Part shown: positions 7,155-59,725 of the stretch, one piece after another
Layout: every line of letters begins with the position of its first letter
Numbering within the stretch: position 1 is the first letter of the stretch
From: a virus
DNA: 64,000 nucleotides
Reading direction: 5' to 3' (one strand)
Virus record (IMG/VR): IMGVR_UViG_3300032294_003343
Coordinates: 62,001-126,000 of that record
Program-made: the position numbers and the translations under genes
The notes under the pieces: model-generated
The model's input: only the letters and a program-made list of their open reading frames with translations
What the model was told of the DNA's origin: nothing
Databases searched by the model: none

Positions 7155-7175
7155 TTGTAACCACCGCTAAACAGG

Positions 7176-7191
7176 GAATATTAAAATATTC
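7176..7191. repeat. Short perfect inverted repeat between two virion genes
   Basis: GAATATT and AATATTC are separated by two bases, giving a 7-bp stem in the 57-base gap between the 321-aa and 1450-aa genes. No T-run follows on the transcribed (minus) strand, so it is unlikely to be a classic terminator. It may be an RNA processing site or a protein-binding dyad, or chance in AT-rich DNA. Confidence 0.3.
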
Positions 7192-7211
7192 TTTGCCAGC
7201 CGATGTAGCCC

Positions 7212-8177: not shown

Positions 8178-8180
8178 AAT

Positions 8181-11100: not shown

Positions 11101-11846
11101 TTTACTACAGCCAGTAATGCAGTTTCTAATTGATCATGAGTCAGATTGCCTTTGTCCTCTAAGCTGTTATGACTTATTGTTGGAAGTCTTGCTGAATTTA
11201 AAATGCCAGTTGTAATTTTAGCAGCGTCAACAGAATTTATATTTTCACTAGTTATTTGGTTTTTAACTTCTAAGGATAAATCAATTGGAGAAGGATTTCC
11301 TGTTCCACCAATATGCTTGTGATTCTTAATTAGGTACGAAAGGGTTGAAAATAAAGTTATGTCTTGTCTTGTAGTTTCGTATAAATTAACAAGATTATTA
11401 GCTACATCAACATCCAAATATCCTAATGAAATGTAATTTACCGTGTCATTAATTTGTGTTAATGATGCTACAAAATCAACATCACCAGTAATAGCAGTGT
11501 TTTCATTTTCATAAGCATAAACATATACTTTTGATATTCCAACTGTAGTAGGAATTGTAGGCAAAGTAACATCTTTAGAAGCAGTAGTGTTTGCAGCTTT
11601 ATATGAAACAAAACCCTTGCCAGAAGTGATGGTTATTTTTGTAAGCTTAAATTCGTTTGAGTAAGTTTGAATACGCCATGATGGGACCGTTGGATCTTCT
11701 TCTATGATGCCATTCTTGAAAATTTGATACAGATTGTACATTTGATTTTCGATGGCTTTGAAACGATTCTCATCTAAATCAATGTTTTCTGAAAGATCTT
11801 GGTTTGGTTCAATATATCCAAACCCATAAATTGGTGTATTTCCCAT
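8181..11846 (-). CDS. Tail fibre/baseplate-type protein with NHL-like C terminus (1221 aa)
   Basis: The ATG (11846-11844) overlaps the upstream stop as TAATG. Residues about 1-260 have a layout I associate with phage baseplate or fibre N-terminal regions: a short 'IEPNQDLSENIDLDENRFKA' helix segment, a beta domain, then 'KNHKHIGGTGNPSPIDL', 'DAAKITTGILNSARLP' and 'GNLTHDQLETALLAV'. The centre is Ser/Thr/Asn-rich beta sequence with repeated 'GFGF' and 'SSTG' patches. The C-terminal third carries propeller-like repeats: 'NGGNIICDSKNDRIIMTD', 'YLLPNGNVLLGSPALD' and a final NHL-type 'FHPKGMRIISNDNILVSE'. That last blade runs to the very C terminus, so the propeller may close with a neighbour or be incomplete. 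Likely exposed on the virion; receptor or glycan binding is an inference from fold type only. Confidence 0.8.
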   Translation of the reverse strand: MGNTPIYGFGYIEPNQDLSENIDLDENRFKAIENQMYNLYQIFKNGIIEEDPTVPSWRIQTYSNEFKLTKITITSGKGFVSYKAANTTASKDVTLPTIPTTVGISKVYVYAYENENTAITGDVDFVASLTQINDTVNYISLGYLDVDVANNLVNLYETTRQDITLFSTLSYLIKNHKHIGGTGNPSPIDLSLEVKNQITSENINSVDAAKITTGILNSARLPTISHNSLEDKGNLTHDQLETALLAVVNNDANDKMSDLSIANRLQMLIALKKSGGVGFTFIDSTQINTFTYVPGIFPNTSANASTGNSANFAQTTSVPSQYTLATIYDTAPNTSGSGISGSVTSSSFVGDKSFVVQNDFLQAKTVASSLGSTTNAFFSNIKIAGSATTGSFTIDTPLNYLTLSQPVSSIFDTTGSWDTGLVFTTSYAANKVKVDTSLYAYTLFNQPVSLDFDSKVGFGFSAGLGETGAALGKIYMFLVVGNGSTDPNLQYDQKIDFAPNTGTGSSTIYITPATNVKIFDDTTYGFIGSTATYSSVNLSDFGDSSLKSSILGFGFYFSTDQGWNAEKQTKFELLTPTDAQINSSGNYDSLVLARRNAIDQTSSVFVWNEIYKYKNANFLMRFDSGDINTQYNQVQYDIDVPSGTKYTVQSRSDVSSDLFYNLKTVSETEVIIATPNVNSSTGRYFDVLFSLYSNEFQSAAPTVNNLRINYSTVGSATTRSYDRNITDTTNQKFGWISDVYYNKNAGYGVTNPDDTNYLKIYDTSNVGNWVYLRNNNLISAASNVLETTVEDGIDAGTLRNYLTPNQIFLKSTNYGLDTPTDYQSLPNGGNIICDSKNDRIIMTDINGVFTKVIQGNIRLKLTSRDFVALSASFNPNTRKIFIAFSQNISFVDLTKIYITYDNISVRGDDTRLSGDYLEPIFDSSSTYVFTIKDTVEGIALNTAINNSLTKKVRLDRGCFTNSGNSLNTNTALSAIIPTSTVSTTNRTEQFVAGISTSITGTSTVTTGLPTTTTVVNSVTDYNGDGVVSTTEMYGPNSQTNDIILDLLQGPIYFANIYNPVSVQYDETNSLIVIAQPHSNSVLCYSDNTDLTLKWAITSDIVNYYDNKLGSAYLLPNGNVLLGSPALDINDTGKLQVYNISNGYIETKLTFNNDVVKALPGPATDYSNFYALTDDVINFGANSRLHLVNNSGTILSTWGDNNELFHPKGMRIISNDNILVSE

Positions 11847-12073
11847 TACTTAATTTCTTGTGGTTTGTATTCTGATGTTACTTTTTCTACGCCCCAGTTT
11901 GCATAACCCCAGCGTAAAACATCTTGCTCTTCTATTATATTATTTTTATTGACATTGATAACTTGTAAAGCCTGAGTGACATTAGACCTTAAAGTCAAAC
12001 CACTTTGCATATTAATGGTATTTTGTCTAATTTGATCATTGATTACAAATGAAAGAGATTGAAATAATGGCAT
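11846..12073 (-). CDS. Small virion-operon protein (75 aa)
   Basis: I chose ATG 12073 rather than the longer frame start at 12112, because AAGGAG (12085-12080) sits 6 nt before it and the longer form would overlap the upstream gene by 29 nt. The Shine-Dalgarno sequence overlaps that gene's TAA stop. The protein begins MPLFQSLSFVINDQIRQN and is mostly helical and polar, with a C-terminal 'DVLRWGYANWGVEKV' patch. No family recognised. It sits between the hub-like protein and the 1221-aa fibre-type protein. A small connector or chaperone is plausible but unproven. Confidence 0.75.
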   Translation of the reverse strand: MPLFQSLSFVINDQIRQNTINMQSGLTLRSNVTQALQVINVNKNNIIEEQDVLRWGYANWGVEKVTSEYKPQEIK

Positions 12074-12083
12074 GTTAAACTCC

Positions 12084-14993
12084 TTATAATGCAATTGGCA
12101 TATTGGTACCACGTACTGATGCTGTAATTAAGTTATTTCCTTTATCGTAGTTGTAATCTATACTTTGATATATATATCTATCTGTTGAATTGACAACTTT
12201 ACCTTGAAATACTTTAATAGAAAACTTCCCATGAAAATTCAATGGTTTTGTAACATAACATTGAAAAGATATAGAACTTATAGGGGTTTTAGAAACTAAC
12301 TCAATGCTGTCAGTAATTCTTCTCAACACCTCTTGATCTGGAATCTCATTTCTTTGTGTTGACCACATTAAGTATTTCTTGAATCCGACATATGGAGCTT
12401 GTGCTGAATTTCTTGGAGCATTTGCAAGAAATTTCAATAATCTATCAGGAATTTGTAATGTTGCAGGATCCAATGATACTGAATTATTAGAATATCTTTC
12501 ATCTGCTAAAAATCCTGTCATTGCAACCCCAAAAACTCTTACCCCAGCTGAAAGTGATTGAACATTTGTGCTTATTGTGTAATCATTAACCAAAAGTCCA
12601 TGTAAATCAGATTGAAAGTTTGTCATAAACTTTGTAGTATTTGATGCATTACTGTCAAAAGAATATCCAGTTCCTGCTGAGTTAAGACCTGTAAATTTCA
12701 AGTCAGTATCTTCGTAATTGTTTCTGCACTCTAATTTGAAACCATATTTTTCAGCCCATCTGAATGTCGGTAAAGAATAAGGGTTATTTAACCTTTCAAG
12801 CAACTTTCCTAATTTTTCATAAATTTTATCTAAGGGATTTAATTTTATAAGATCTTGATTGTTAGTAGAATTACTATTTAATCTCAAGTCAATTCCAGAT
12901 ATCACACCGCCATTGAATAAATCAGCATTATTTCTAGAATAAAATGACCAAAAACCAGAACAAGCCATAATCGAATCAATTGCTAGGTCATGTCTCATAC
13001 CAGCAATCATCAAGTTTTTATCAAAATATAGATTATCTAAAACAAAAGATGCAATGTCTTGGCAAGTGAGAGTGAAAGTGCTTTCATTTCCTTTTCTAGA
13101 ATATGATGTACTATTTATGAAGCCTTGAAAAAATGGCTTTAAATCACCTTGCACATAACCTGCTTCAATTGTCACACAAAGTAAATTATTTTCAATTGCA
13201 TCAATAAAACTTTGGCCCTCTTTAGAATCGATGTTCTTAAGAGTGATTGTTGCAGTTTTAGAAATTCTACTGAGATTTGTCAATTCTGCAGCACAATTAA
13301 CTGACCAACCTTCAACCCAAGCTGTAATATCACCAACATTGAAAAATAATTGACTAAGCACTGGGTCAATAAATTTATAATCATCAAAGCCCACATTGCC
13401 ACTTCCTACATTTGCAACTTTATTTGCGGCTAAAACTGCAGGGTGTGGAACTTCACATTGTAAAAATGCTGGACCTTCAATAGTTGTGTTATAAATTAGC
13501 TTAAATAACACTGTTTTTTTATCTGGATCAGCACTAGTAGCTAGAGGCTCTCTTATTATAGTTATGTCTTCAAATTGCTTTCCATCAAGTCTAAGATCAG
13601 CAAAATAAGAAATATTTTTATCTATTGGGTTTAATTTTTGAGATGGATTTGTAGAATTTGGTGCATCATTGTATCCAGTATTTCTAGGATTATTATTTAT
13701 CCTATATGAAGCTTGTTCAAATGTTTGTTTGACAACATTTAAAAAAGCTTGTATATTAGAAATCTTTTTCAGAGAATATCTAAATTCTGCTGTGATGTAA
13801 TTTTTTCTTTGATTAACTGGTTGATTATTATTATAATTATTAAAAATAAGTGCTGAATATCTAAACTTTAAATTAGTATTAGACAAAGAAATATACACAT
13901 AAGTCTCAGGTGGACAATATACTTCACGTCCACTAAAGTTGATTACTGTGTTCCATCTTGAAATATCTGGACTAAAGCCTATTAATAAATTTGGTCCTGC
14001 AAAATGAACAAATACATCATATGAATTCATATTATTTTTATCAAAAACAGGAGCCACTAAATCGGTTTGTGTGAAGTATTGACGTGTGTATGGATCATAT
14101 ATTTTTAAAACAGGTTTACTGTCAATCTTAAACTCTATAAAAAAATCATTTATATAGTCATTATTGGCAACAGCAGGTTTGACGATTATTCTAATTGCCG
14201 AATCGTTTGGTTGCATATTACTTGCTGAAAAATTTATGTGAAATCCATTATTTCCATTACTGCCTCTCGCATTTATCGATTGTGGAGGGCTATCATCTGG
14301 ATTATAAATTTGAGCACCAGTTTGATATACAGCATCAAAAGCTGTAGGAAATATTCTTTGAATTGTTGTGTTTGTTTTTTCAGAAGTTACTTCAACTTGT
14401 GCTCCATAATTTGGATCTTTTACAGTTCTCAAAGTACCTGTATTTCTTCCAGAAATTTTTGGACCAATATATTTATATGCTTCTGTACCACCATTATCCA
14501 AATGCCAAATATTATATGTAGTTAAGACATTTCCCAAACCACTAAATGGTATCTTTGGTAAATGCTGAGAATTGTCTACAAAATTTGATGATTGAGAAGA
14601 CACAGCACTTGTACTTGGGGTATCTACAAAAATAGGATTATATGCTGTATCAGGTCCTTTTAATCTATCAAGTACTGGGTCTATTTCATTTGGAGCTATT
14701 GCACCATAAGCAAATGTGCAAGAAGAGGCACTTATAGCTGTATTTATTTCTGGTATTTTAGCATTTTGAAGTGATGATACTGTTCTTAATCTTGAACTGT
14801 ATTTTGGTTCTGTAGTTCCATTTGAATAAGTATAAGATGGTTCAAAATCATAATTTAATACGTTCAAGTTATCTTGGGATTTTGTAGCTACAGATGCTGA
14901 GTATTCCCCTGAAAAAAATCCACTTTCAGGAGCATTCATAACACTTAAAGTGACTTTTGTTTTTAATTGTCGTGGATCTGGGGAAAGGTTCAT
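12084..14993 (-). CDS. Probable baseplate hub / late-control-D-like tail protein (969 aa)
   Basis: The ATG at 14993 has no Shine-Dalgarno sequence but a TATAAT box exactly 6 nt upstream. The N-terminal 500 residues are beta-rich, with a region about 250-400 resembling a concanavalin-type sandwich ('KPVLKIYDPYTRQYF', 'CPPETYVYISLSNTNLKF'). From about residue 560 the pattern matches tail hub proteins (gpD / gp27 / VgrG-like): 'WVEGWSVNCAAELTNLSR', 'TITLKNID', 'FFQGFINSTSYSRKGNES' and 'TFTLTCQDIASFVLD'. In known hubs this is the barrel that attaches the tube tip to the spike. A later region about 770-969 ends with 'YQSIDYNYDKGNNLITASVRG', typical of the closing barrel strands. The family call rests on pattern memory, not a search. 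Confidence 0.6.
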   Translation of the reverse strand: MNLSPDPRQLKTKVTLSVMNAPESGFFSGEYSASVATKSQDNLNVLNYDFEPSYTYSNGTTEPKYSSRLRTVSSLQNAKIPEINTAISASSCTFAYGAIAPNEIDPVLDRLKGPDTAYNPIFVDTPSTSAVSSQSSNFVDNSQHLPKIPFSGLGNVLTTYNIWHLDNGGTEAYKYIGPKISGRNTGTLRTVKDPNYGAQVEVTSEKTNTTIQRIFPTAFDAVYQTGAQIYNPDDSPPQSINARGSNGNNGFHINFSASNMQPNDSAIRIIVKPAVANNDYINDFFIEFKIDSKPVLKIYDPYTRQYFTQTDLVAPVFDKNNMNSYDVFVHFAGPNLLIGFSPDISRWNTVINFSGREVYCPPETYVYISLSNTNLKFRYSALIFNNYNNNQPVNQRKNYITAEFRYSLKKISNIQAFLNVVKQTFEQASYRINNNPRNTGYNDAPNSTNPSQKLNPIDKNISYFADLRLDGKQFEDITIIREPLATSADPDKKTVLFKLIYNTTIEGPAFLQCEVPHPAVLAANKVANVGSGNVGFDDYKFIDPVLSQLFFNVGDITAWVEGWSVNCAAELTNLSRISKTATITLKNIDSKEGQSFIDAIENNLLCVTIEAGYVQGDLKPFFQGFINSTSYSRKGNESTFTLTCQDIASFVLDNLYFDKNLMIAGMRHDLAIDSIMACSGFWSFYSRNNADLFNGGVISGIDLRLNSNSTNNQDLIKLNPLDKIYEKLGKLLERLNNPYSLPTFRWAEKYGFKLECRNNYEDTDLKFTGLNSAGTGYSFDSNASNTTKFMTNFQSDLHGLLVNDYTISTNVQSLSAGVRVFGVAMTGFLADERYSNNSVSLDPATLQIPDRLLKFLANAPRNSAQAPYVGFKKYLMWSTQRNEIPDQEVLRRITDSIELVSKTPISSISFQCYVTKPLNFHGKFSIKVFQGKVVNSTDRYIYQSIDYNYDKGNNLITASVRGTNMPIAL

Positions 14994-15028: not shown

Positions 15029-18000
15029 TTACTGGTCTATTGCAGTTATTGGGTAAGCAGTTGGGTATTGAGGATCTGTAGCATATCCTCCTGGTCTAGT
15101 TATAGTAAATGAGTAAGAAGATGGCGTAACGTTAGATGCTAAAATAATTGAATGATTCCCCCCAGCTGCTATATCAGAAATGCCCTGGACACTCATATTT
15201 GGAAGAACTAAACCACTTGGAATACCGTCTCTAATATTCAAAAATGTTGAACTTGGAATGGATTGAACATATCCTAACTGTCCAAAATCATTTAATCCAT
15301 AAGGGAAAAATAGTTTTTCAGATACAGCTAAGTATCCAAACTTGCCTGTTGAAACCTTGAGAAAATTTTGAGGAGGGTCTAAACCTGGAAATACATCAGA
15401 GACTATTCCTGAACTAAAATCAAATTGAGGTACTTCACTTGCTGAAAAATTGTAAAGATATATTGCATGGTCAAAGAATGGATTTTGTGAAGCTGTGATC
15501 ACAACTAATCTGTTTTCATAAGTTGAAATATCATAGGCGTATCCCCAGCCTCGTAAACTAGACAATCCAGTAAACCAAACTATTTGGTTGTCTATATCAT
15601 ATGAAAGTCCAGTTACAAATCCTGATTCATTATTAAATCCAACTTCTAGTTTGAATGGATTTAGATAATTAGTATTTCCAGGTAATAAATCTGGATTTGG
15701 ATCAATGTTTATAGGAAAAAATCCTGTATCAATAATTCCAGTTTTTGGTGTGTATCTATGACTTCCTGCTACCCATACTTGCTTATTGTCAGTAAAGGCG
15801 AGAATATAGGAATTACAAGATACATCCAATAAACCATTATTTGATGTGTAACTTGCCCCGCTGAAATTATTAGCTCTTTCAAGAATAGGTTGAAAACTAT
15901 AAATGTTTGTTCTTGGTAATGACTGTCCAAAAATTCCATTAATATTAGAACCACATACCAATAGCACTCTTTTACCTATTGTTGTATCTTCTGCAATAAT
16001 AGCTGAGCAAAAATCTCCAGCAGAAACCTTGAGAACTTTAAATTTTGATGCAAGAGGTACTAACGTCAGAGAATTTTGCTGAGTTATGTTTGACGGAAAA
16101 CCAAGTTGTCCATTGCTGTTCGACCCACTTGCATAAAGTTTTCCATCTGCATCTACTACAAAGGTGTGATATAAACCACTTTCAATTATAGTATATTGCT
16201 TTTTGTCGTCAACTAATTCAAATCCATACCTATTTGGTGAATTTGACCCACTTGCTATTGCTCCATACAATGCTTGTCCAGATGAAAACAATTTATTTGC
16301 TAACGGGTTAGGAATTGCAGAAACATTTACATCTACAGTATATCTATTTCCCAAATTTGTAGCCGGAGAAGAAGCAAATTTTTGTGTGTCAAAAACAACC
16401 AAACTTACTGTAAATATTCCAACTGTGTTAAATTGATTTGCAAAAGTTGAATTATATCCAGACTTTACGCCATCAATTGACCATTCGAATGTGATACTAG
16501 ATCCATCTTCAGGGTCATAAGAATTAGTGCCATCAAAGGTAAAAGTATCTCCAACCTTTAATTCAATATAGCCTGTAACAGTTGGCTCATTTCCAAGTAT
16601 TGCTATTGGGTTTTGATTTGGTGGTGGAGGCACAGGATCTTCAAACACAAATACTGTTTTATTAACTGGGTCAGATTCTAGACCTAAATTATCAAAAACA
16701 CTTAAAGTTATTGTATGATTACCCACACTATCAAAAGATGTTTCGAAAGTAGGTGTATTGGAGTTTTGATTCACTCCATCTTTAAGCCATTTGTATCCAT
16801 TGATGAATTGATTTGAATCAGAATCATAACTTCCAAAGGACGTAAATACTATTGGTGTATTTATTTTTATAGATACAATTCCAGGTGGCAATGTATCTAA
16901 CAATGCTATAGGTTTATTATTTTTAACAATGTAATCAAGAGTTGCTGTATTTGTTGCAGCTAAATTATCTGTTACCTTTAGAGAAACTTTGTATGTGCCT
17001 GGATTATTATAAGTTGTAGCAGCAATTACTTGATCTGATATTTTGCCATTACCAAAATCCCAAGCGTAAATGAGTGGTCCTCCTATATTGTCAGGGTCAT
17101 AACTACCAGCAGCTGAAAAAGTTACGGTAACTGGAGCAAAACTTGTATTTGACGAAGGATTAGCTGCTATATTTGCTACGGGTGGTTCATTAGGAGCATT
17201 AACTTTGACACCAATATTGGCTAAATCACTAAAAGCACCATCGTCATCTTGAACTTTCAATGTAACAGAATAAGGGATAAATCTTGGAGTGCTGAAAGTG
17301 TAAGTGAAAGATTTAGTTCTAAAAGGAGTGCCTAGCAATCCATTTATATACCATTCATAATTTACAACTGTTCCATCAAGATCATAAGAATTAGAATCAA
17401 ATGTTACTGTAAATGGTGCAGTTCCAAAGATCACATTATTTACAGGAGTGCTGCTTGTTGATATGACCGCAAATGGCTTTCTATTATTAATAAATACAAT
17501 TTTAGACGCTGTATTGGATAAACCAAAGTTATCAAAAACAGTAAGAGTTACGGTGTAGTTTCTATTGCCATCATTATAAGATTTTGTGGGATTTTTTTGC
17601 AGTGGATCAGTTGTAGTAAAATTAGTGCCATCTCCAAAGTCCCAAGACCATCTAACTAAAGAATTTTCAGGATCACTTGAATTATCAATAAATGTTATCG
17701 GATCAAAAGTGAATGCACCTATTGGACTGTATGAAAAATTTGCAACAGGTGGTTGATTGTTTATTTGAATCGTCTTAGTAGAATCAACAGTTTCAAGACT
17801 TACACCACTACGATTATCAGTTGCGGTCAATTTAGCAATGAAAACACCAACTGTTTTATATATATGAGAAATTGGAGCAGGATTGACAAATTGTGTAGAG
17901 GTGCCATCTCCAAAGTCTAATCTATAAAGGATGATAGAACCATCTGGATCTCTAGAGTTTGATACATCGAAAACAAAAGTATCATTTATTACTCCAGAAT

Positions 18001-21000
18001 TTTTATCAACATTCAAGATAGCAATTGGAAGAATATTGTCAGGAGCTGTGACATTTACTGAAACGCTAGCGGTATTAGAAGCACCAAAATCATCAGTAAC
18101 TGTTAGGGACACTGTGTATGATCCTTCTGTTGCAAAGTTAATTGTGGCATTTGGTGTAGATGCAACAATTGTGCCAGCTATACTCCAACTATAGGATACA
18201 ATAATTCCATCTTCATCTGTTGATGTATCACCATTGAATGTCAAGCTACCAGGTGCCTTTACAGATAATGATGTGTATGTAATTCTAGATACAGGATTTC
18301 TATTAGTAACAGTAATCAACAAATTATCCGTAGATGTATCACCTATATTATCAGTAACTGTAAGAGAAGCGTTATATGTTCCAGGTTTGGCATATATATG
18401 AGGCTCTGTAATTCTTCCTTGAGAAATAATTGTGCCATCACCAAAATTCCAAGCATATTTAGTGATGTTTCCATCACTATCATTTGAGTTGTTTCCAAAG
18501 AAATTAACTTGAGTCTTAGATAATACTGGATTTGGAGAGGCTGTAATTATTGCAACTGGAGGATTGTTTTTGACGATAATATCTAAAACATAAGTATTTG
18601 TAAGATTGCCATCATCAGTAACTGTTAGCTTTACTGGGTATGTACCTGATTTAGTAAATGTATGAGAAACATTTTTTTGATATGTTTGAGCGTTAAGGAA
18701 TAAAGTACTGCCTGTTTCAAATTCCCAAAACCAACTTACTATTTTTCCGTCAGCATCAGTGGAAACATCTGTGAATAATATTGTGGCTGGTGCCAAAATA
18801 TTATTGGAATTAATTACAAATAAAGCTTGAGGTGGTTGATTTACTGGTGGCGGGACGACAGTAAATTTAATTGACGAAGTGGCTGTTTTCTTATTTGTTC
18901 CATCGGGCAAACCATCATCAGTCACAGTGAGAACAACTGTATATTCTCCTGGAAATAAATAAGTATTAGTTGGGTTTTTTAAAGTTGGATCAGTTGTCGA
19001 AAATGTTTTTCCATCACCAAAATTCCAATTCCATTGAGTGATAAAACCATCAGGGTCAGAAGATGTTTCGGTAAATTTAACAACTAATGGTTTGAAACTC
19101 GTTTGATTGCCTGTAATATTTGAAATTACTGGTGCTTGATTTACTAATGGATTTACAATTACTTCTTTAGTAATGGAAGTTGATTTACCACCATTGTCTG
19201 TAACTGTAAGAGAAACTAAATATCTTCCAGCAGAAAAATAAGTATGAGATGGATTTTGTACATTATCTGTAAAACCATCATCAAAGTCCCAATTCCAAGA
19301 AGCAATCGTACCGTCAGCATCAGTTGAAGTATCAACAAAATCAATCACTAATTTTCTATTCTGCTGAGAGTAAATGAAGTTTGCAATTGGCGGATTATTT
19401 CCTGGAGGCAAAACTGTAATTTCAATTGTTCCTGACACTTGGAGCCCTCCAGAATCAGTTACAGTAAGAACAACTCTATATTTGCCAGGATTAGCATAAA
19501 TGTGTTCTGGATTTTGAACGTCAGCTGTTTGATTATCTCCAAAGTTCCAGTTCCAAGCAACTAACGGTCCCTCATCATCACTTGAAGTATCAGTAAATTG
19601 CACTTTTAATGTTGGAGAAAATGAGGTTTGAGCCCACTTGAAATTTGGTGATGGTGGATTATTTACTACACCATTTACATTAATTGTTGGACCGAAATAT
19701 TTGCTTGATAATCTTGCTAAATTATCCTTGACAAAAAGAGTTGGTGTAAATGAACCTGCTCTTGTGTAATCATATGTAAAAGGTGTATTATCAAATTTAA
19801 TTGCAGTATTTCCATCACCAAAATCCCATTCATAAATTTGAATAAATGATCCATCATTTGCTGGATTAGATTGATCTGTAAAAGTAACAGTTAGCGTAAC
19901 ATCTCCAGAGGTAGGAGTTGCTGAAAATTTAGCTTGAGGCGAAAGATTATTTACTGGAGCTGGATTGACTGTTATTATTATTGAAGCCGGAGCACTACTT
20001 ACACCACTAGCGTTTGTAACAATAAGAGTTACTTTATATTCAATAGCATTCGTTGTGTTATTAACAAAAGTGTGTGCTGGATTTTCTTCTGTAGATTGAG
20101 TGTTGTCACCAAAATTCCAAGCATAAGTGAGTGTGCTACCACCAGGATCATAAGAATTAGTAGAAAGAAAATTCACAATCAGGGCAGATTGTCCGCTAGT
20201 AGGATTTGCTTGTATATTGGCAACAGGTGCTAATGATTCAACTGTAGAGCCTGAATTATTTACACATTCAATATCGAACTTTCTGATTCCCAAAATTTTT
20301 GAATATGGATGAAATAAAACTGCTTCTAAAAAACATTTACCTGTGTCGTAAGCTACAAAAACTTTTCCATCATACTCTTGTTTTTTGCATGTAATTAAGG
20401 CTGGTTTTTGTCTAGGAACTTCAGCATTGAGTTCACTATCAGTTTCAAAATAAGTTATAATATTTTGCCTATTTATTAATTCTGAAACTAAACTTTCATC
20501 TAATTTTCCTTTGATTAAGTGTAATTTGTCAGTACGTTTTTTACCCAATGAGCTTGAAGATAATCCGTATTCGAAGTAATAAATTCCACCATTACACCAA
20601 AAAACAGATCTATGTAAGCCTAATTTTTCATCATAATCAGATGTCAATCCATAAATATTATATTTTTCATCTAAAGTATTACCAGCAATAGCATCTAAAT
20701 CAAAAAGTGTATTTCTTTCTTGTGCCTGATAATTTGAAATAAGTTTGAAATTAATTTTTCTTGGTGATGCATTTAAAGAGTATGCAACAATATAATCTCT
20801 TGATGAAATTTGAACAACAGTAGGAAAAGAAGAATATGCTATACCTGAAGATGTTATTGGCTCTATCAATCTAAAATCAGATATATATGTTGGGGCAATA
20901 CCATCTACAAAAATTGTTTTATCTGTAACAGGTTCTTTAATATTAGTAGTATTTAATGAAATTGATCTAAAAACAATTGCCCCTGGATCTGCATATCCAA

Positions 21001-24000
21001 CATTGAATAATTGTGGTGCTTCATCAGAAATTACATAAGAATTATATTTTGTTCCTTTAAAAGCTTTAGCTAAAGTCGAAAAGTTAGCATCAGTCTTTGC
21101 TTGTCCATCTATATATGGAAACCATGAAAGCTTATTTCTCATGTCAGTGTTTGCAGCAATTAAAGAATCATAATCGTGCGAACTTGTTGCATTTACATTC
21201 GAGTTTCTTTCTGTAAGCAAAAATGTGTTTATTCTAGATCTTTGATTGATATGCTTATCTGATGATATGACAAATGGAAATTCACCCTTAACTGTTACTC
21301 CAAGTCCTGTAATAGTGTTATAGCCTACAGGATATTTTTCGTACTGTTGATTGAAAAAAGAATCAGTAGAGATAATTGCTGTTTGATTTTCTTCACCAGG
21401 TTTTGTTGTAGGCACAGTATAAGCAATTATTATAGATTTTTCAAACCCTGATTCGCAAGCTGAAAGATTTGTAGCAACATTTTGTTTTCCACCTTTGTAA
21501 GCTGCTCTCTCTCTTTTTGCTTGAGACATATTTCTAGTAGAGCTTCTAAATTGTGAAGGTGTTGTGAAATTTTTTGATTTTTCTAGTTCTATATAATGGT
21601 CTATTTTATTCTTTCCATATACTGAACCAGTTTCAAAATAACCCTTAGCATCTGATTCTGAAGATCCTTTATTGCTTCTTGTAGATGCTTCTAATAAATT
21701 TGCTTTTCTTAAGTTATCTGGAGTGCTTATTTGAGGAGGTAGTATCAGACCGTATCCTGGTCCTCTTGCTATAAATCCACCTCTTATGTGTAAAGTAGAT
21801 TCTTGTATAGTGCCATCTTCATTCCTAAGCGATGAATTTCCAAATAAATCTGGTTTGCCTGGGGGAAAATCTCCATTTATTCTATGAAATATTGTTTGAG
21901 CTAAAATTGTTTGTAGATCATTGAAAGAAATATTTATTGCGTTGATATAAGAAGTGCCAGAGCCACTGTTTTTCCCACTTGGTATAGCTAAAAGTCCATT
22001 ACCATAAACCCAAGTAGAATATCCAGTATCCGAATTAAGATACTCAGGGTCGAGTTTGATACCATATATTCTATTACCAGTAATTGGATCTACAGGATAG
22101 CTTTTCTCAACTTTTTTTGCCTTCCAACCTGGGTGTCTAATTATTTTAGCTTCAGAATTATTAGGGTCAAGCCATCTTGGATTTACATATGGATCTACTT
22201 TAGAGATATCATCACATAACTCTGATATAGATTTAGGTGACAGAGTCCATGTATTTAGGTTAGGAGTTACTGTATTCTGCCAAGTAATATCGCCTTCTTC
22301 TTCGTCTCTCGCATCAGTATTTTGCTGCCAAAATCTTCTCGTGTAATAAGTTGTTTCAAAATCACTTGAAACTTGAAATTTTGTTTTTTCTACAAAAGTA
22401 TTATTATTACCAGATGTTACAAAATTGCTTAATGAATTATTACGTACAAGTTTTACTTTTCCTAATTGTAATTGATCATTGTCAATTTCGATTTTAGAAA
22501 TTCTTGATATTCCATAATAAGGACCATTGGAAGCTTCATCTTCAGGTGCGTCATCAATAGCATTAACTTCAGGACCAGAAGGAGTAATAAAAATTAAATT
22601 AGTGTTTAGAACAGTGTCAGCTGGAAAAGTTTTTTCAACCAGTCTTACAGGCTTGACTGTTATGACAGGAGCATTTGCAGACAAAATAAAATCTTTGTTA
22701 TTTACTAGTCTTGGTATACCTTCATAATCAGGTGGACTATTCTTGTCAAGTTTAGAATATTCTATATTAGCCCTGTAAAAATTTTGATATTTTTCTACTC
22801 TGTCAATTTTTACTATTATGCTTGCAAATTTATCATCTGAAAAATTATCTAAAAATTTTAATCTAATTGATGAGCCAGCTGCAAATTTGTTATTAATGTT
22901 ATAGTCTGAAGGAATTTGAATAGTAAAATATGCTTTACCTGTATTAGCAACGTCATTAACATAATCAATAATTTTGTAAGACTTGACTAAATTCTTAACT
23001 TTATCTTCAACCTCTATTCCATCGTAAGGAATTACTTGACTACTCTCATAAGAAGGGATTGGGTTAATATAGATAATTCCACTGCCATCTACAAAATCAA
23101 AAGTTGTTCTTGATACAACTTCTGATTTGTCTGGAAGTCCTGGATCAAAATCATAAACTTCGAACTCGTCAGGATACTTTCCATCGGTGCCTCGATTTAA
23201 TAATTCATCAATTGATTTACCAGAAGTTATGTCGTTTTTAACTATATAAATGAATAGTTCTTTACGAGATGTATCTAGATTGCCACCATTCCAAGGTTTT
23301 GCTAATTTGATCTTGCCATTGTTAATTCTTGGTTTGCCAAATATTACATTGGTACCAATACCAGTCTTTGGGAATGCACTTGTATTGACTTCGAAGTAAT
23401 CTACAATATTTTCTTTCGTATCAGTAAGATATACAATTCCAGAATTCTTAATTTTTTGCTTTATATCATCTGTAATCCAAACTAATGATTCTGTATTTCT
23501 GTTTGGTTTTGTAATTAAGAAATTATCTTTTGGTAAATTTTCAGTTGATAAATATCCAATTGGACTTGTAGATTGGGGCTTTGATGTGGTGAATGTATTA
23601 AGTCTAGGATATGGGGAATCTTGATTATCAACATCATCTATCTTATTGTCAGGATTACAAAGATCAATTCTTAATGTTTTGAAAGATGAAGAGTCTGTAG
23701 ATATTTTGTAACTCTTAACAGATTCATTTTTCGAATTTGATTGTAATGTAGGACCCTTGGAAGTTTCTGTAATTAATAAGTTACCACTTTGAAGTTGCCC
23801 TGAAGATTTCAATTCAATTTCTAAATATCTATACCCTGAAAGATTTTGGTCACCATAATAATGTGGCTCACTTTCACTACCATTATAGAATCTTACATTA
23901 CCAGTGCCTTCTATAATAAATTCTTTATCTTGTGACAAAGACATAGAATTGAACTTCCAGCCTCTTAATGGTATGGGCACTGAACCTGGGAAATCATATT

Positions 24001-25447
24001 TATCTAAAGTCAACTCTCTACTGGTTTCATTAATATCATAACAACCAGTAGCTGATCTAACAAACTTTATGGGGAAATCATAGTTTTTTGGTGGACTTTC
24101 TAAATCATCTAATGGCTCTTTCGATTTTATTGTGTCAACTAAGCCAAAAATCCATTTTTGTTGATTGTTGAAATCTAAGACTTTTAAAGTTTCTAGTAAA
24201 CCATCAGACTCTCTGACTTCTATTTCACCATGATAATTTCTAAATGTTTGTTCAATAAGACCAACGTTTCCAGAATTAGTGTTTATTGTTGCATATGTTG
24301 GTAAAGGTATTGTGCGATCTATATTTCTAAATTTTTTTCTATTTTTACCATCTGAATTAAATCCAACAACATATGCAGTCAATGGGTCCGTATGCGCATT
24401 CTTCCAATCTAATATTTTAGATTCAAATGAAACTTTTCTAGGAGAATCAGATTTAAGTCTGATTCTTGCTGTGCATTTAGGCAAGTCTATGAGCGTGGCA
24501 TTGGGGAAAGGTAGCAAATTATAATTTTGTGAATCTGCTTGAGAATGATCTTTTTTTACAAAATCTTGATCACCAGCTTCAACAGGGATATTGCTTGAAA
24601 TGCTTACATAACCTGAATTTGAGCTTGTTGTTGTCCAAGCATTTATAAATTTTTCATTTTCAACTTCTAAATCTAATAATTCAGGATTAGGAATAACAAA
24701 TGTCTTAGCAAATGATGTCACTTGACCTTTTGGGTTAGTAAATTTTATTTTCAAACCAACATATGCTTTAGATTCAGGATTGATAGTTTCATACCAATTT
24801 AAACTTGTATATTTTGGCCATTGTCTTACTGTATCTTTAGTAAGTTCTTTATTTCTCCAGAATTCATCTTCATTGTCAGGGCACACAGGTGAACCAATAA
24901 AATAATTTTCAGATGGATAATACTCGTCAATATCAACAAATTCATTAGTTTCTAAGCCAACAAAAAATTCACCTTCAATAGATCCAGACATTATTTTATT
25001 TCCCATAGTTGTTGGGTTATATGTCTCAGTGTAAAGTATTACTGTCTCAGAATAATCTTTATCCAGTCCGCCGTTTACTTCGATTCCACCAAATGACTGA
25101 ATAAAAAACGTTATTGGAATTTTTGCTAGGTTTCTTTGCCCATCTACAAAATTACCAAATCCAAAATTACCACCTCTTTGTTCTTGAAAAATTGGGTCGT
25201 ATCCATCCCAAGGATGACTTTTTGGACTTGCACTTCCTCCACGGGTAGTCTCTGGTAGCTCTCCAATATACATTGCACAAGTGACACCCTTGAAAAAGAA
25301 AGACGGATATGCACCTGCAGAAACTACCTGGAAAATGTTATTAAAACCACCAATTAAATCATCTGTTATCAGATTTATCTGATAATCAAACTTAAATTTA
25401 CCAGTATATTGAGCACTGCTTGCTCTATCTATTTTGTAGGTGGCCAT
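15029..25447 (-). CDS. Giant virion protein with ~14 PKD domains and RCC1-like C terminus (3472 aa)
   Basis: The largest gene in the window. It starts at ATG 25447, just after the upstream stop, with AAGAAG as a weak Shine-Dalgarno. Residues 1 to about 1735 are beta-rich and unassigned, including an acidic linker 'NAIDDAPEDEASNGP'. Residues about 1736-3046 are tandem PKD-type Ig-like domains of about 90 residues each. Each has a core such as 'YAWNFGDN', 'WNWNFGDG' or 'WSWDFGDG', a 'SYDPDG' or 'STDADG' turn, a 'VSLTVTDN' strand and an 'N(Q)PP' linker. Residues about 3050-3460 hold RCC1-like repeats: 'GLYHTFVVDADGKLYASG', 'SNSNGQLGFPS', 'VSAGDFCSAII', 'GLNDFGQLGY' and 'AAGGNHSIIL'. No signal peptide, anchor motif or membrane helix is visible, which fits a virion-mounted rather than cell-anchored protein. 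Glycan or receptor binding is inferred from PKD biology. Confidence 0.85.
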   Translation of the reverse strand: MATYKIDRASSAQYTGKFKFDYQINLITDDLIGGFNNIFQVVSAGAYPSFFFKGVTCAMYIGELPETTRGGSASPKSHPWDGYDPIFQEQRGGNFGFGNFVDGQRNLAKIPITFFIQSFGGIEVNGGLDKDYSETVILYTETYNPTTMGNKIMSGSIEGEFFVGLETNEFVDIDEYYPSENYFIGSPVCPDNEDEFWRNKELTKDTVRQWPKYTSLNWYETINPESKAYVGLKIKFTNPKGQVTSFAKTFVIPNPELLDLEVENEKFINAWTTTSSNSGYVSISSNIPVEAGDQDFVKKDHSQADSQNYNLLPFPNATLIDLPKCTARIRLKSDSPRKVSFESKILDWKNAHTDPLTAYVVGFNSDGKNRKKFRNIDRTIPLPTYATINTNSGNVGLIEQTFRNYHGEIEVRESDGLLETLKVLDFNNQQKWIFGLVDTIKSKEPLDDLESPPKNYDFPIKFVRSATGCYDINETSRELTLDKYDFPGSVPIPLRGWKFNSMSLSQDKEFIIEGTGNVRFYNGSESEPHYYGDQNLSGYRYLEIELKSSGQLQSGNLLITETSKGPTLQSNSKNESVKSYKISTDSSSFKTLRIDLCNPDNKIDDVDNQDSPYPRLNTFTTSKPQSTSPIGYLSTENLPKDNFLITKPNRNTESLVWITDDIKQKIKNSGIVYLTDTKENIVDYFEVNTSAFPKTGIGTNVIFGKPRINNGKIKLAKPWNGGNLDTSRKELFIYIVKNDITSGKSIDELLNRGTDGKYPDEFEVYDFDPGLPDKSEVVSRTTFDFVDGSGIIYINPIPSYESSQVIPYDGIEVEDKVKNLVKSYKIIDYVNDVANTGKAYFTIQIPSDYNINNKFAAGSSIRLKFLDNFSDDKFASIIVKIDRVEKYQNFYRANIEYSKLDKNSPPDYEGIPRLVNNKDFILSANAPVITVKPVRLVEKTFPADTVLNTNLIFITPSGPEVNAIDDAPEDEASNGPYYGISRISKIEIDNDQLQLGKVKLVRNNSLSNFVTSGNNNTFVEKTKFQVSSDFETTYYTRRFWQQNTDARDEEEGDITWQNTVTPNLNTWTLSPKSISELCDDISKVDPYVNPRWLDPNNSEAKIIRHPGWKAKKVEKSYPVDPITGNRIYGIKLDPEYLNSDTGYSTWVYGNGLLAIPSGKNSGSGTSYINAINISFNDLQTILAQTIFHRINGDFPPGKPDLFGNSSLRNEDGTIQESTLHIRGGFIARGPGYGLILPPQISTPDNLRKANLLEASTRSNKGSSESDAKGYFETGSVYGKNKIDHYIELEKSKNFTTPSQFRSSTRNMSQAKRERAAYKGGKQNVATNLSACESGFEKSIIIAYTVPTTKPGEENQTAIISTDSFFNQQYEKYPVGYNTITGLGVTVKGEFPFVISSDKHINQRSRINTFLLTERNSNVNATSSHDYDSLIAANTDMRNKLSWFPYIDGQAKTDANFSTLAKAFKGTKYNSYVISDEAPQLFNVGYADPGAIVFRSISLNTTNIKEPVTDKTIFVDGIAPTYISDFRLIEPITSSGIAYSSFPTVVQISSRDYIVAYSLNASPRKINFKLISNYQAQERNTLFDLDAIAGNTLDEKYNIYGLTSDYDEKLGLHRSVFWCNGGIYYFEYGLSSSSLGKKRTDKLHLIKGKLDESLVSELINRQNIITYFETDSELNAEVPRQKPALITCKKQEYDGKVFVAYDTGKCFLEAVLFHPYSKILGIRKFDIECVNNSGSTVESLAPVANIQANPTSGQSALIVNFLSTNSYDPGGSTLTYAWNFGDNTQSTEENPAHTFVNNTTNAIEYKVTLIVTNASGVSSAPASIIITVNPAPVNNLSPQAKFSATPTSGDVTLTVTFTDQSNPANDGSFIQIYEWDFGDGNTAIKFDNTPFTYDYTRAGSFTPTLFVKDNLARLSSKYFGPTINVNGVVNNPPSPNFKWAQTSFSPTLKVQFTDTSSDDEGPLVAWNWNFGDNQTADVQNPEHIYANPGKYRVVLTVTDSGGLQVSGTIEITVLPPGNNPPIANFIYSQQNRKLVIDFVDTSTDADGTIASWNWDFDDGFTDNVQNPSHTYFSAGRYLVSLTVTDNGGKSTSITKEVIVNPLVNQAPVISNITGNQTSFKPLVVKFTETSSDPDGFITQWNWNFGDGKTFSTTDPTLKNPTNTYLFPGEYTVVLTVTDDGLPDGTNKKTATSSIKFTVVPPPVNQPPQALFVINSNNILAPATILFTDVSTDADGKIVSWFWEFETGSTLFLNAQTYQKNVSHTFTKSGTYPVKLTVTDDGNLTNTYVLDIIVKNNPPVAIITASPNPVLSKTQVNFFGNNSNDSDGNITKYAWNFGDGTIISQGRITEPHIYAKPGTYNASLTVTDNIGDTSTDNLLITVTNRNPVSRITYTSLSVKAPGSLTFNGDTSTDEDGIIVSYSWSIAGTIVASTPNATINFATEGSYTVSLTVTDDFGASNTASVSVNVTAPDNILPIAILNVDKNSGVINDTFVFDVSNSRDPDGSIILYRLDFGDGTSTQFVNPAPISHIYKTVGVFIAKLTATDNRSGVSLETVDSTKTIQINNQPPVANFSYSPIGAFTFDPITFIDNSSDPENSLVRWSWDFGDGTNFTTTDPLQKNPTKSYNDGNRNYTVTLTVFDNFGLSNTASKIVFINNRKPFAVISTSSTPVNNVIFGTAPFTVTFDSNSYDLDGTVVNYEWYINGLLGTPFRTKSFTYTFSTPRFIPYSVTLKVQDDDGAFSDLANIGVKVNAPNEPPVANIAANPSSNTSFAPVTVTFSAAGSYDPDNIGGPLIYAWDFGNGKISDQVIAATTYNNPGTYKVSLKVTDNLAATNTATLDYIVKNNKPIALLDTLPPGIVSIKINTPIVFTSFGSYDSDSNQFINGYKWLKDGVNQNSNTPTFETSFDSVGNHTITLSVFDNLGLESDPVNKTVFVFEDPVPPPPNQNPIAILGNEPTVTGYIELKVGDTFTFDGTNSYDPEDGSSITFEWSIDGVKSGYNSTFANQFNTVGIFTVSLVVFDTQKFASSPATNLGNRYTVDVNVSAIPNPLANKLFSSGQALYGAIASGSNSPNRYGFELVDDKKQYTIIESGLYHTFVVDADGKLYASGSNSNGQLGFPSNITQQNSLTLVPLASKFKVLKVSAGDFCSAIIAEDTTIGKRVLLVCGSNINGIFGQSLPRTNIYSFQPILERANNFSGASYTSNNGLLDVSCNSYILAFTDNKQVWVAGSHRYTPKTGIIDTGFFPINIDPNPDLLPGNTNYLNPFKLEVGFNNESGFVTGLSYDIDNQIVWFTGLSSLRGWGYAYDISTYENRLVVITASQNPFFDHAIYLYNFSASEVPQFDFSSGIVSDVFPGLDPPQNFLKVSTGKFGYLAVSEKLFFPYGLNDFGQLGYVQSIPSSTFLNIRDGIPSGLVLPNMSVQGISDIAAGGNHSIILASNVTPSSYSFTITRPGGYATDPQYPTAYPITAIDQ
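15060..16300 (-). other. RCC1-like propeller region of the giant protein
   Basis: The last about 410 residues of the 3472-aa protein show repeats with the RCC1 signature: a Gly-rich 'ASGSNSNGQLG' turn followed about 30-50 residues later by 'KVSAGDFCSAII'. Equivalent blades are 'VCGSNINGIFGQS', 'AVSEKLFFPYGLNDFGQLG' and 'DIAAGGNHSIILAS'. About five to seven blades would fit the length, but the middle ones are degenerate and I cannot count them reliably. The domain is C-terminal to the PKD stalk and so may be its distal tip. Confidence 0.65.
16310..20240 (-). repeat. Tandem array of about 14 PKD-domain coding repeats
   Basis: About 3.9 kb encoding 14 PKD-like domains in a row. I counted domain starts after each 'PP', 'NP', 'KP' or 'AP' linker. 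Protein repeats are diverged, without long identical DNA runs, so the array is old or under selection for diversity. Domains 8, 11, 13 and 14 lack the WDFGDG core and have 'YSWSIAG', 'YEWYING', 'YKWLKDG' and 'FEWSIDG' instead. Confidence 0.8.
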
Positions 25448-25448
25448 T

Positions 25449-28400
25449 TTAACTTCTTAGGAATCTTTCTAACATAGTTTGTACAGTCTGCTGGGTTTCC
25501 TTACGCAGCTCTTTAATTCGCTCTTCTGTCTTCATTTCTATGTTGTAAATTTCTTGAATTATTTCTTTTTTGATAGTGTGGAATTCATTTTTAGTGATTA
25601 CATTGGACACTAAATTATTTGTTACATTTTCAATTTTCTTGACAAGCAACTCTTCTACTTTGTTTTCAACTATCTTCTCTGTCTTTTTCTGCTCTTCTTT
25701 TTCTTGATGATAATTATTTGTGGTAAAAGTTTGACGATTATCTACCTTGTAATAATTATCTTTCTTCTCTTTATAAACATCAATTTTAATCTGAGATGTA
25801 CTATTTACAATACGATTTTGAACTTGCTCAATCTTTTGAATTTTCTGTGTAACTTTTCTTTCATTGGTAGTTTTTTGAACATTCAAAACATCTAATAATT
25901 GAAAGAAATTATTGACTTTTCTATCTTTACTTGTCTTTGTTACTTTTTGCTCATTATAAAAATTCATCATATCAAAGAAGTTTTGTTCAACTTTATATGA
26001 ATTACCCTGGACTTTGATAGTTTCTTTATTCATCCTATCTAATCGCTTAGATATACGGGCAAATTCTCTTTCAGTTCGCTTTTCTTGCTTGATTTGTTGT
26101 GTTATGTTTAGTTCAGTAAATAAATTAGAAATATTTTTTTTATTACTCTCAAAACTATAACGATTCAAGATAGTTGTGTTTTTCTCTGTCTCAAGCAAGT
26201 TTAGATTTTGAATAAATTCTTGCAATTGAACTTTTTGTGTTTTATTAGTAATTTGAACATTAGAATTATTAATTTCATTATTTACAATGTTGATATCTTG
26301 TAAAGTTTCTCTAATCTTTTGTCTTTGAGAAATATTACTAATTTTACTTTCAAATCTATTGAAAGATTGGATGTAATTCTTGCTCAAATTTATGGCAGTA
26401 ATGAAGTCTTTCTGATCAATCTTACTGGTGCGATTTACAATATTATTTTCTTGAATAATATTGCTCACATAATTCAAGTTCTTTACTATTTGGTCAACAT
26501 TTCTAACCTGTGCGATCTTGCTTATTTGCTGAACACTTGTTTTAAATTCTTGATAGTTCTGGGATATCAAATTCAAATCTTTAGTAATTTGATTGATATT
26601 ATTAGTGTTAGAAATCTTAGAAATATTCTGAGCAGTTTCTTGTGTGACATTTACAGTGTCCAAAATTTCAACATTTTTAACAAGATTGGAAATTCTATTG
26701 TAGATCTTTCTTTCTTGCACAGTCTTTGTTAAATTTACAATGTTAAGTAAATCTTTACTTTCAATATTAGAAATCTTTTGAACAACTTCTGTAATTTGAT
26801 TCACACTTGACAGTTTTATGTTGGATATATCATTGGTTTTTGTGAGATTTATTATTTTATTTAATTGATTGATATTTTCTAGTTGGCTAATCTGTTTGAC
26901 AATATTTACTTGTTCTTGAGTTATGTTATTTATCTTGTTTATTTGGCTTAATTTTTCAATATTTTCAGATACAAGATTCAATTGGGAAACTTTTAAGTTT
27001 TCAACATTTGATACATCTACAGTCTTAGAAACATTGATAAGATTTTTCAAATTTTGTATTTCTGTCTTAAACTCTGAACTATTCAAATTACTTATTTCAT
27101 CTATGTTTTCTGTAATTTGATTGATATTGTTATATCTTGCCAGTCTTGTAATTTTTCTGACAATATTTTCAGATTTCTTGATGTCTTGTGTTACATTGAT
27201 ATTCTTCAATAAATTAATTTTTTCTGTAATATTTTCTGTGTTAAAGTTTGAAAGTTTCTCCACAATAAACTCAACATTAGATTTATTAATTATTTCATTT
27301 AAATTTTCAACATTTTTTTGGTCCACACGAACTGAAGATAACTTTGGATTTATTGAAATCGTATTTAAATTTTCAATGACATTTGAAATATTTTTATAAC
27401 TTTGCGCTATTCTAGTGAAAGATTTTGATTCTGATAAATTGACAAAAGATTTAAATTCTTCTACATTTATAGAAGATAATTTGTTGACAATTTGATTTTC
27501 AGTATTGTTATAATCAACAACATTTTTAGAAAGATTGACTAAGTTTTTGATGTTCTCAATTGTAGAGTTTGAAACTTTAGTAATTTCTATATTATTATTT
27601 TTAGAATAGTTAATAATATCAACTAAATTCTTAATATTAGAGGTGTTGATATTACTTTGTCTCAATACTGTGTAAATACTATTTAGTTGTTCTTCATTAG
27701 TAACCAAAGACAACAAAGCTCTTACTGTTTGATTATTAGATATATTGCTTATTTTATTGACAATTATGTTAGAATATTCATCAATGTAATCAGTATTATT
27801 TAGAACATTTTTGATCTCTTTTGCTACAAAATTGCTGGTCTTTTCTTGAATATGAACCATTCTGTGGTGAACAAAAGAAATGTTTTGCTGTGCTACATTT
27901 AAGTCATTCTTGATTTTTGTAATCTTATTTTCAACATATTGATTACTATTTTTTATTGTTTTCAAAACCGCATATTGAAATTCATAATCATTGGCAGTGT
28001 ATTCATAGTTAACATTTTTTGTTAAGTTTAAAATATTTTTGTAATGATTATTTTTATGAGTAACACTATGCCTATGAATATTCTGATAAGTATTTTTTAA
28101 ATTGACTTCAGTTTGCTTGATTTGCTGAACTGTGTCATTAAAGAAGTTTAAGTTCTGAATAAATTCTCTGTATCTATTTTCAATATGTCTATAGAAATTA
28201 TAAGAAGTAGACAGGTTTTTTAGATTTGTCTCATAAACAGTTTTTTCAGAATGATTAAGTATTCTATTAAAATCAATACTCAAATTCTTACTATGCTGGT
28301 TGACTATCTTGAAGAATTGATTTTCAATATTAGGCGCAATATTTAAGTCTTTTAAGAAAGCCTTATATAAATTTTCAAAATCAATTTTAGTAGCTTCAGA

Positions 28401-29333
28401 AAATTTATTTAAATTGGTAACTTGCTGGTTTACTGTTCTATTGGTGTTGTTTATAAAATTTAAGTCAGTATTGTTAGTATTACTGATGTTGTTTACTGTT
28501 CTAGAGGATCTAAGCTGTAAATCTAGTCTGTTATTATTTAATAAATTTATTTCATTGATATTAGTGATAGAATTATTATTTATAGCTCTTGTGTTAGTAG
28601 TATTTTTCGACAAAGATACATCTTGCAAATAAGCGTTTATTTCATCTTTCTTTGAATTACCAGACCTTACTTCAAATTTTTTTTTTACTCTTACTTCACT
28701 AGGATTTAAACCTAGTTTCTTAATTGCATCATTTACTAGAGCTTCATTTTCACTTATAATATCTGCATTTTCTGAATCTTCAAAAAATTGATTAAATCCG
28801 CCAGATACAACACCTGATGAAAGCATTTCCATAAATCTTGGATATAGTTGAAAAAATCCATTAGCTACACTTTCATCTACTGATTCGAATTGTTCAATGT
28901 CAAGTTTTTTTATGGAATCATCAGATTTTAGTGACTTTAAATTTTGCAAAGCCATCATAAACTCTATCTGATCGGAGTTCAAACCCAAAGAGCTATAGTC
29001 AACTACTTTTTGTTTAAACTCCTTGATTTTTGTCGGATAAATAATATCTGGATCTGTATTGACTTTATTAAGTTCTAAATTTTCAGAATAATTGGAATGA
29101 AAAGGATTAATTCTAAAGAGTTTTCTTGGTAAAATTTTTGCAGAAACATCTGGAATGTTATAATCGTCTGGATCTTCAGTTGTACCAGCAGTATGAAGCT
29201 CTTTCTTAATGTTATAAGAAATAGCCTTAGTAGATGGTATGTATTGAAAATAACAATTTAATTCTGCAGACGTGACAAATGCGTCTGACTGAATTGAAAT
29301 TTTATCATATTCGATAAAATCAATATCTGACAT
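25449..29333 (-). CDS. Asn/Ile/Lys-rich repetitive fibrous protein (1294 aa)
   Basis: Starts at ATG 29333 with no visible Shine-Dalgarno. Residues 1 to about 240 are of mixed composition ('EYDKISIQSDAFVTSAEL', acidic stretches). The following about 1000 residues are dominated by Asn, Ile, Lys, Ser, Leu and Val in degenerate units of about 30-40 residues, with cores like 'VQKISNIESKDLLNIVNLTK' and 'QNISKISNTNNINQITKDL'. Hydrophobic residues recur every 3-4 positions, which suggests long helices or a helical solenoid. The C terminus ('EIIQEIYNIEMKTEERIKEL') is a strong charged coiled coil. Its stop is 1 base before the ATG of the giant PKD gene. It could be a long coiled-coil fibre, a tape-measure-like ruler or a trimerising stalk; the sequence alone does not decide. 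Confidence 0.8.
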   Translation of the reverse strand: MSDIDFIEYDKISIQSDAFVTSAELNCYFQYIPSTKAISYNIKKELHTAGTTEDPDDYNIPDVSAKILPRKLFRINPFHSNYSENLELNKVNTDPDIIYPTKIKEFKQKVVDYSSLGLNSDQIEFMMALQNLKSLKSDDSIKKLDIEQFESVDESVANGFFQLYPRFMEMLSSGVVSGGFNQFFEDSENADIISENEALVNDAIKKLGLNPSEVRVKKKFEVRSGNSKKDEINAYLQDVSLSKNTTNTRAINNNSITNINEINLLNNNRLDLQLRSSRTVNNISNTNNTDLNFINNTNRTVNQQVTNLNKFSEATKIDFENLYKAFLKDLNIAPNIENQFFKIVNQHSKNLSIDFNRILNHSEKTVYETNLKNLSTSYNFYRHIENRYREFIQNLNFFNDTVQQIKQTEVNLKNTYQNIHRHSVTHKNNHYKNILNLTKNVNYEYTANDYEFQYAVLKTIKNSNQYVENKITKIKNDLNVAQQNISFVHHRMVHIQEKTSNFVAKEIKNVLNNTDYIDEYSNIIVNKISNISNNQTVRALLSLVTNEEQLNSIYTVLRQSNINTSNIKNLVDIINYSKNNNIEITKVSNSTIENIKNLVNLSKNVVDYNNTENQIVNKLSSINVEEFKSFVNLSESKSFTRIAQSYKNISNVIENLNTISINPKLSSVRVDQKNVENLNEIINKSNVEFIVEKLSNFNTENITEKINLLKNINVTQDIKKSENIVRKITRLARYNNINQITENIDEISNLNSSEFKTEIQNLKNLINVSKTVDVSNVENLKVSQLNLVSENIEKLSQINKINNITQEQVNIVKQISQLENINQLNKIINLTKTNDISNIKLSSVNQITEVVQKISNIESKDLLNIVNLTKTVQERKIYNRISNLVKNVEILDTVNVTQETAQNISKISNTNNINQITKDLNLISQNYQEFKTSVQQISKIAQVRNVDQIVKNLNYVSNIIQENNIVNRTSKIDQKDFITAINLSKNYIQSFNRFESKISNISQRQKIRETLQDINIVNNEINNSNVQITNKTQKVQLQEFIQNLNLLETEKNTTILNRYSFESNKKNISNLFTELNITQQIKQEKRTEREFARISKRLDRMNKETIKVQGNSYKVEQNFFDMMNFYNEQKVTKTSKDRKVNNFFQLLDVLNVQKTTNERKVTQKIQKIEQVQNRIVNSTSQIKIDVYKEKKDNYYKVDNRQTFTTNNYHQEKEEQKKTEKIVENKVEELLVKKIENVTNNLVSNVITKNEFHTIKKEIIQEIYNIEMKTEERIKELRKETQQTVQTMLERFLRS

Positions 29334-58690: not shown

Positions 58691-58697
58691 GAATATT

Positions 58698-59717: not shown

Positions 59718-59725
59718 ACTGTTAG

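Follow-up and report, generated by a model that had tools for sequence, protein, structure and literature searches.

The analyzed window, a stretch of 64,000 nucleotides within a 169-kb piece from a giant phage that is rare and uncultured, includes a gene of 3472 codons formed by a single open reading frame (15029..25447) that starts with ATG and is read on the minus strand, from 25447 to 15029; a plus-strand reading of this interval was ruled out by 227 stops. In IMG/VR, the gene is present in nine contigs, from which seven additional, distinct copies (L001, L002, L003, L012, L014, L016, and L017) entered the comparison, L015 and L023 being apparently close copies of L014, and the L016 copy being truncated by a contig end. 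The gene is intact in other copies, and is therefore no assembly artifact, and it is retained in each related contig found. The L017 copy comes from a record of 358,269 bases. There, the gene for a coiled-coil protein, described below, is split across both contig ends (L017/G001), as would fit a genome of this size that is circularly permuted.

The gene is encoded in a tail module beside hub/baseplate genes and is the fourth in a minus-strand run with products of 881 aa, 214 aa, 1294 aa, 3472 aa, 969 aa, 88 aa, 1221 aa, 321 aa, and 1450 aa, beyond which the run continues. The next gene (12084..14993, minus strand) encodes a baseplate-hub-like protein of 969 aa that matched phrog_196 in four of four relatives and NF047561 weakly; PDB sequence profiles returned nothing for this protein, and neither it nor the 1221-aa protein had a match in the phage collection by tblastn. 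The genes encoding 88, 1221, 321, and 1450 aa (2802..12112, minus strand) are 85–99% identical among near relatives, and the 1450-aa product matches phage head-decoration/structural families. The preceding gene (25449..29333, minus strand) encodes a very long coiled coil of 1294 aa (1294–1548 aa in relatives), and the order of coiled-coil gene, 3472-aa gene, and hub-like gene is conserved wherever the contigs of relatives hold the flanks. In L012 (2365-7011), the coiled-coil protein reaches 1548 aa, compared with about 1300 aa in most relatives, and its BLAST segments overlap, which points to an internal duplication. The first two genes of the run, encoding 881 and 214 aa (29353..32642, minus strand), are fast evolving, at 25–67% identity versus about 90% for the adjoining coiled-coil gene; the 881-aa protein has a helical look with a hydrophobic stretch and is possibly tape-measure-like.

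The same genome contains separate tail-fiber candidates with PHROG fiber matches (G000:1694-12402), so the 3472-aa protein may be an accessory rather than the main receptor-binding fiber. The window also holds a sugar/cell-surface cluster (50032-61260) with an acetolactate-synthase-type TPP enzyme, a NeuB-like synthase, a GDP-mannose dehydratase-like protein, epimerases, methyltransferases, a glycosyltransferase, and a B12/radical SAM protein. Head genes outside the window (G000:C1:134428-154263) are akin to those of Bacillus phage G (Donellivirus), with major capsid proteins that are 48% identical over their whole length and homologous portal and protease/scaffold proteins; however, neither PKD nor RCC1 has a match in phage G, and its tail genes have no detectable relation to those of this phage in the parts compared (about 200 kb, phmmer). 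RCC1 searches of phage G, LR745208, and Tunturi_5 gave no match, and a PKD-like match was obtained in Tunturi_5 alone, below the cut-off.

Domain architecture of the 3472-aa protein

Pfam searches of the full protein recovered PKD domains (PKD_4, E = 6.4e-170; PKD, E = 2e-117) and an RCC1-like C terminus (WD40_RLD, 6.4e-20; RCC1, 1.7e-10), with nothing convincing beyond these, and no trimerization or chaperone domain was recognized. The PKD domains form a stalk at about residues 1728-3032 (16352..20266, minus strand). A genome-wide HMM search with the PKD_4 model gave 14 separate matches at E ≤ 4.7e-4, every one within this frame; 11 of the 14 units individually exceed the curated Pfam cut-off (PF18911/PF00801), and in the alignment they are spaced 86–101 aa apart. 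A PKD domain measures about 4 nm, and at ∼4 nm per domain the 14 Ig-like domains would make a fixed-length rod of roughly 55–60 nm.

Beyond the stalk lies the tip, an RCC1-like beta-propeller at about residues 3045-3448 (15104..16315, minus strand) that was recognized by Pfam, the RCC1 HMM, an AlphaFold2 model, and Foldseek. The genome-wide RCC1 search found two repeats above cut-off, both in this frame alone, and the tip searched by itself matched RCC1 at E 1e-12; sequence evidence assigns residues 3053-3231 to an RCC1-like family and gives hints for the final portion of the tip. Residues 2930-3472 were modeled with AlphaFold2 from seven homologs at moderate confidence (mean pLDDT 60, pTM 0.61), with pLDDT blocks of 80–88 in the first blades and lower values in the last. 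In Foldseek searches with this model, all 50 best PDB matches were RCC1-like propellers, led by RPGR (TM 0.71 by target length, E 7.7e-14) and including HERC2, RCC1, and UVR8, and the alignments covered about 390–480 columns, that is, the whole domain. The tip is thus predicted to be a closed, complete seven-bladed RCC1-like propeller, alike in fold to these cellular propellers but only 12–17% identical to them in the fold alignments, and the roles of the cellular proteins are nuclear, ciliary, or light-sensing. A scan of genome contigs for the tip found none.

The N-terminal base, residues 1-1727, was without a match above noise in Pfam, PHROG, NCBIfam, and PDB sequence profiles, and residues 1-1740 matched no fiber family in PHROG or Pfam; a weak Pfam "La domain" match below cut-off was judged to be chance. 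It comprises a hypervariable, predicted all-beta portion (residues 1-420; 24188..25447, minus strand), a middle portion of no family with weak, non-significant local fold likeness to carbohydrate-binding modules (residues 421-1000; 22448..24187, minus strand), and a conserved portion adjoining the stalk (residues 1001-1727; 20267..22447, minus strand; 64–79% mean pairwise identity). Modeling of residues 1-1180 with AlphaFold gave a low-quality, mostly beta structure (pLDDT 48), which returned no PDB fold match below 1e-3; weak matches to CBM22 and CBM11 were set aside. With this low-confidence query, the sole strong fold match was A0A6J7WIV8 (E 2.2e-12, probability 1.00; 14% identity), an uncharacterized 970-aa protein of an uncultured Caudovirales phage, and parts of the base may therefore occur elsewhere without this architecture. 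Residues 1440-1735 (20243-21130, minus strand) show blade-like beta repeats by eye that might represent a second propeller or a sialidase-like fold, with no family match in Pfam or PHROG.

An earlier, sequence-only reading of this DNA had described a single 3472-residue gene with an unassigned base of ∼1700 residues, 14 PKD domains, and an RCC1-like propeller at its end. Its frame and length hold, with the strand corrected to minus; HMM search and alignment both give exactly 14 PKD domains, the base is indeed without a sequence-family match, and the outcome that the reading had named as refuting it, a C terminus predicted to be something other than a propeller, did not occur. DNA and protein searches of a cultured phage collection with the whole gene, its first 1735 residues, and the tip gave no match at normal limits.

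RCC1-like and PKD domains in other phages

RCC1-domain proteins are encoded by several other phages, specifically S-SRM01 (gp335, gp337, and gp344), Clostridioides phage LIBA6276 (gp39), Bacillus phage SP-15 (gp063), and Brevibacillus phage Jenst (gp140 and gp141). They share RCC1-like repeats with the protein described here, but their similarity to it is very low (best tblastn E 2e-3; phmmer 1e-25 for LIBA6276), and none of these four phages has a PKD domain above the family cut-off. In S-SRM01, the RCC1-domain genes adjoin baseplate-wedge and distal long-tail-fiber genes, and in LIBA6276 the gene lies between tail-fiber genes, both phages being unrelated to this one; in SP-15 it adjoins a pectate-lyase gene. 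The RCC1 gene of Vibrio phage 1.139.A is an exception, located near the terminase, so the link between RCC1 and fiber genes holds often, though not always, in this small sample. The PHROG families of phage RCC1 proteins (phrog_7220, phrog_4219, and phrog_16766) are filed under DNA metabolism, a category that looks doubtful given the position of these genes in S-SRM01 and LIBA6276.

That filing, together with the database name, would suggest that the RCC1-like domain has a part in DNA or nucleoid condensation, and the authors of the phAPEC6 study speculated that its 11 RCC1-like proteins order DNA; phAPEC6 also bears hairy appendages, with no link between the two demonstrated (PMC7247149). Here, the domain shares one polypeptide with a 1700-aa base and 14 PKD domains, encoded within a run of tail genes, the tip is acidic overall (32 D/E versus 23 K/R), and RCC1-domain genes elsewhere stand beside fiber genes, all of which make a DNA-condensing role scarcely credible.

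PKD domains are likewise familiar in phages, reported both for T4 Hoc and for adherent gut phages (PMC13370021) and, as one PKD-like domain each, for the receptor-binding proteins of Deep-Blue and Vp4 (PMC11406892). These are PKD/Ig-like modules in surface or receptor-binding proteins, as here; however, T4 Hoc, Deep-Blue, and Vp4 have one or two such domains instead of a fixed array of 14, and an RCC1-like propeller is not mentioned in the papers on these proteins. The Hoc precedent, and the presence of separate fiber genes in this genome, could accommodate a general adhesin on the capsid or tail with which the particle would cling to polymers or surfaces instead of a host receptor, but Hoc-type proteins are short and the present gene is locked into a tail module, and we consider such a role very improbable. 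In the literature covered, with most subscription journals outside its scope, no phage PKD array capped by an RCC1-like propeller was described. The combination thus appears unusual, as the sequence-only reading had proposed, although phage RCC1-like and PKD domains are each already known.

A fixed rod with variable ends

All regions of the protein are under purifying selection by dN/dS, estimated from pairs with near-saturated synonymous sites, and base and tip co-occur in every contig where both were examined. Within one protein, the PKD units share a mean identity of 32%, compared with about 50–90% between positional counterparts in relatives, and in L017, L014, and L002 the best match of all 14 units was their own counterpart. 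The array is therefore old, fixed, and not turning over, and a young array or one growing by duplication was ruled out by this complete positional orthology. Complete gene copies span only 3461–3479 aa, which, with the 14 positional orthologs, indicates that length is under selection. The product is accordingly real and intact, a giant protein under selection in which a rod fixed at 14 domains ends in an RCC1-like tip. The idea that array length tracks a tape measure found no support, the array remaining at 14 while the coiled-coil neighbor, at most a putative tape measure, varies from 1294 to 1548 aa.

A length fixed across diverged phages, the adjoining hub-like gene, and retention of the gene in every related contig would also suit a structural component of the tail tip or baseplate, in which rod and base build up the tip or the region around it and the host is not bound directly. 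This is distinctly unlikely, both ends being strongly variable and apparently exchanged, and Ig-like rods with a propeller head being more typical of appendages.

The variation is concentrated at the ends. Mean pairwise identity is lowest in residues 1-420 (26–53%), which also hold the most indels, and rises to 62–81% with few indels from about residue 960 to 3300, before declining to 50–62% at the very end; the propeller's first half, at 80%, ranks with the best-conserved parts. The dN/dS ratio follows the same pattern at the N terminus, at 0.10–0.17 in residues 1-420 versus 0.06–0.13 elsewhere, with a peak of 0.155–0.168 in residues 1-180. Co-variation of the N-terminal part with the fast-evolving 881-aa gene was not supported, L002 being an outlier in that gene but not in the N terminus.

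At the C terminus, the variable portion (residues 3290-3472; 15032..15580, minus strand) appears to recombine, as judged by identity profile, trees, and AU tests. The last 180 residues of the tip are 43–60% identical for L002, L014, and L017, whereas residues 3030-3290 are 76–90% identical outside L017. The tree of residues 3290-3472 places L012 with the window copy, L001, and L003, and L002 with L014, whereas the stalk tree places L002 with the window copy, L001, and L003. AU tests rejected the latter grouping for residues 3290-3472 (p 0.0009) and the tip-favored groupings for the stalk (p 0.004 and 0.018), p-values that are optimistic because the groups were picked after the trees were seen. 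At the N terminus, L014 and L017 are sisters in the tree of residues 1-720 (100/100 support). Up to about residue 1200, L017 is no more distant from the other copies than L014, and past there it is clearly more distant, a ratio dropping from about 1.0 to mostly 0.6–0.9; that L014 and L017 share one N-terminal type, although L017 lies far from every other copy past residue ~1400, suggests exchange of an N-terminal module. The stalk does not significantly reject the L014 and L017 pair (AU test, p 0.18), so that conflicting topology is unproven for the N-terminal part taken by itself, and the case for N-terminal exchange is carried by the divergence profile instead. Together, the sequence comparisons suggest that both ends recombine independently of the rod.

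The expected pattern of a conserved, virion-binding N terminus and a variable C-terminal head was thus not found, since the N terminus is the most variable region and the end of the tip varies as well. The "base" of the sequence-only reading is not the conserved anchor that its name implies, while stalk and first propeller half are conserved. In most well-known tail fibers, the N-terminal end is the virion end, and an appendage mounted the other way round, with the propeller end docked on the virion, the hypervariable, beta-rich N-terminal part facing the host, and the PKD rod as a spacer, would place the variable, indel-rich, apparently exchanged region with the highest dN/dS outward and the well-conserved first propeller half inward. 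Given this general rule for tail fibers, the variability of the tip end, and the location of RCC1-domain genes within the fiber loci of other phages, an inverted arrangement is rather unlikely.

The 3472-aa protein is instead probably a tail-associated appendage that serves adsorption and contains a spacer of fixed length. This best reading partly supports what the sequence-only reading had proposed, a phage tail operon product with a stalk and a head for binding, and it draws on the hub-like neighbor, the predicted full propeller, and the adjacency of RCC1 and fiber genes elsewhere; the most variable region being the N terminus and not the tip, unlike in usual tail fibers, counts against it, as do the separate fiber candidates and the lack of any recognized trimerization or chaperone domain. 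We infer presence in virions, orientation, and host binding as follows. The protein would be produced together with the tail module and be anchored on the tail tip or close to it, next to the hub, with the large beta-rich base fixing it to the virion and the rod holding the C-terminal propeller away from the particle, so that the more variable second half of the propeller would touch a cell-surface ligand. Variation in the base may reflect adaptation to interacting proteins or an additional binding surface. An extension of the latter idea, which we consider unlikely as a whole, is a double-headed adsorption arm of fixed length, in which a 14-domain PKD ruler of selected length would separate two independently exchangeable recognition modules, namely a hypervariable, beta-rich N-terminal head and a C-terminal RCC1-like propeller with a changeable half.

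The component parts are of known kinds, and what is new is that PKD and RCC1-like domains are combined, that the array is fixed, and that the ends are apparently exchangeable. The protein is a clear case of an Ig-like rod held at exactly 14 domains across deep divergence while its ends vary and are apparently swapped, and with this fixed rod a role of spacer length in phage adsorption becomes open to testing. The case is also one more sign that phage "regulator of chromosome condensation" genes, filed as DNA metabolism, often belong to the machinery that contacts the host.
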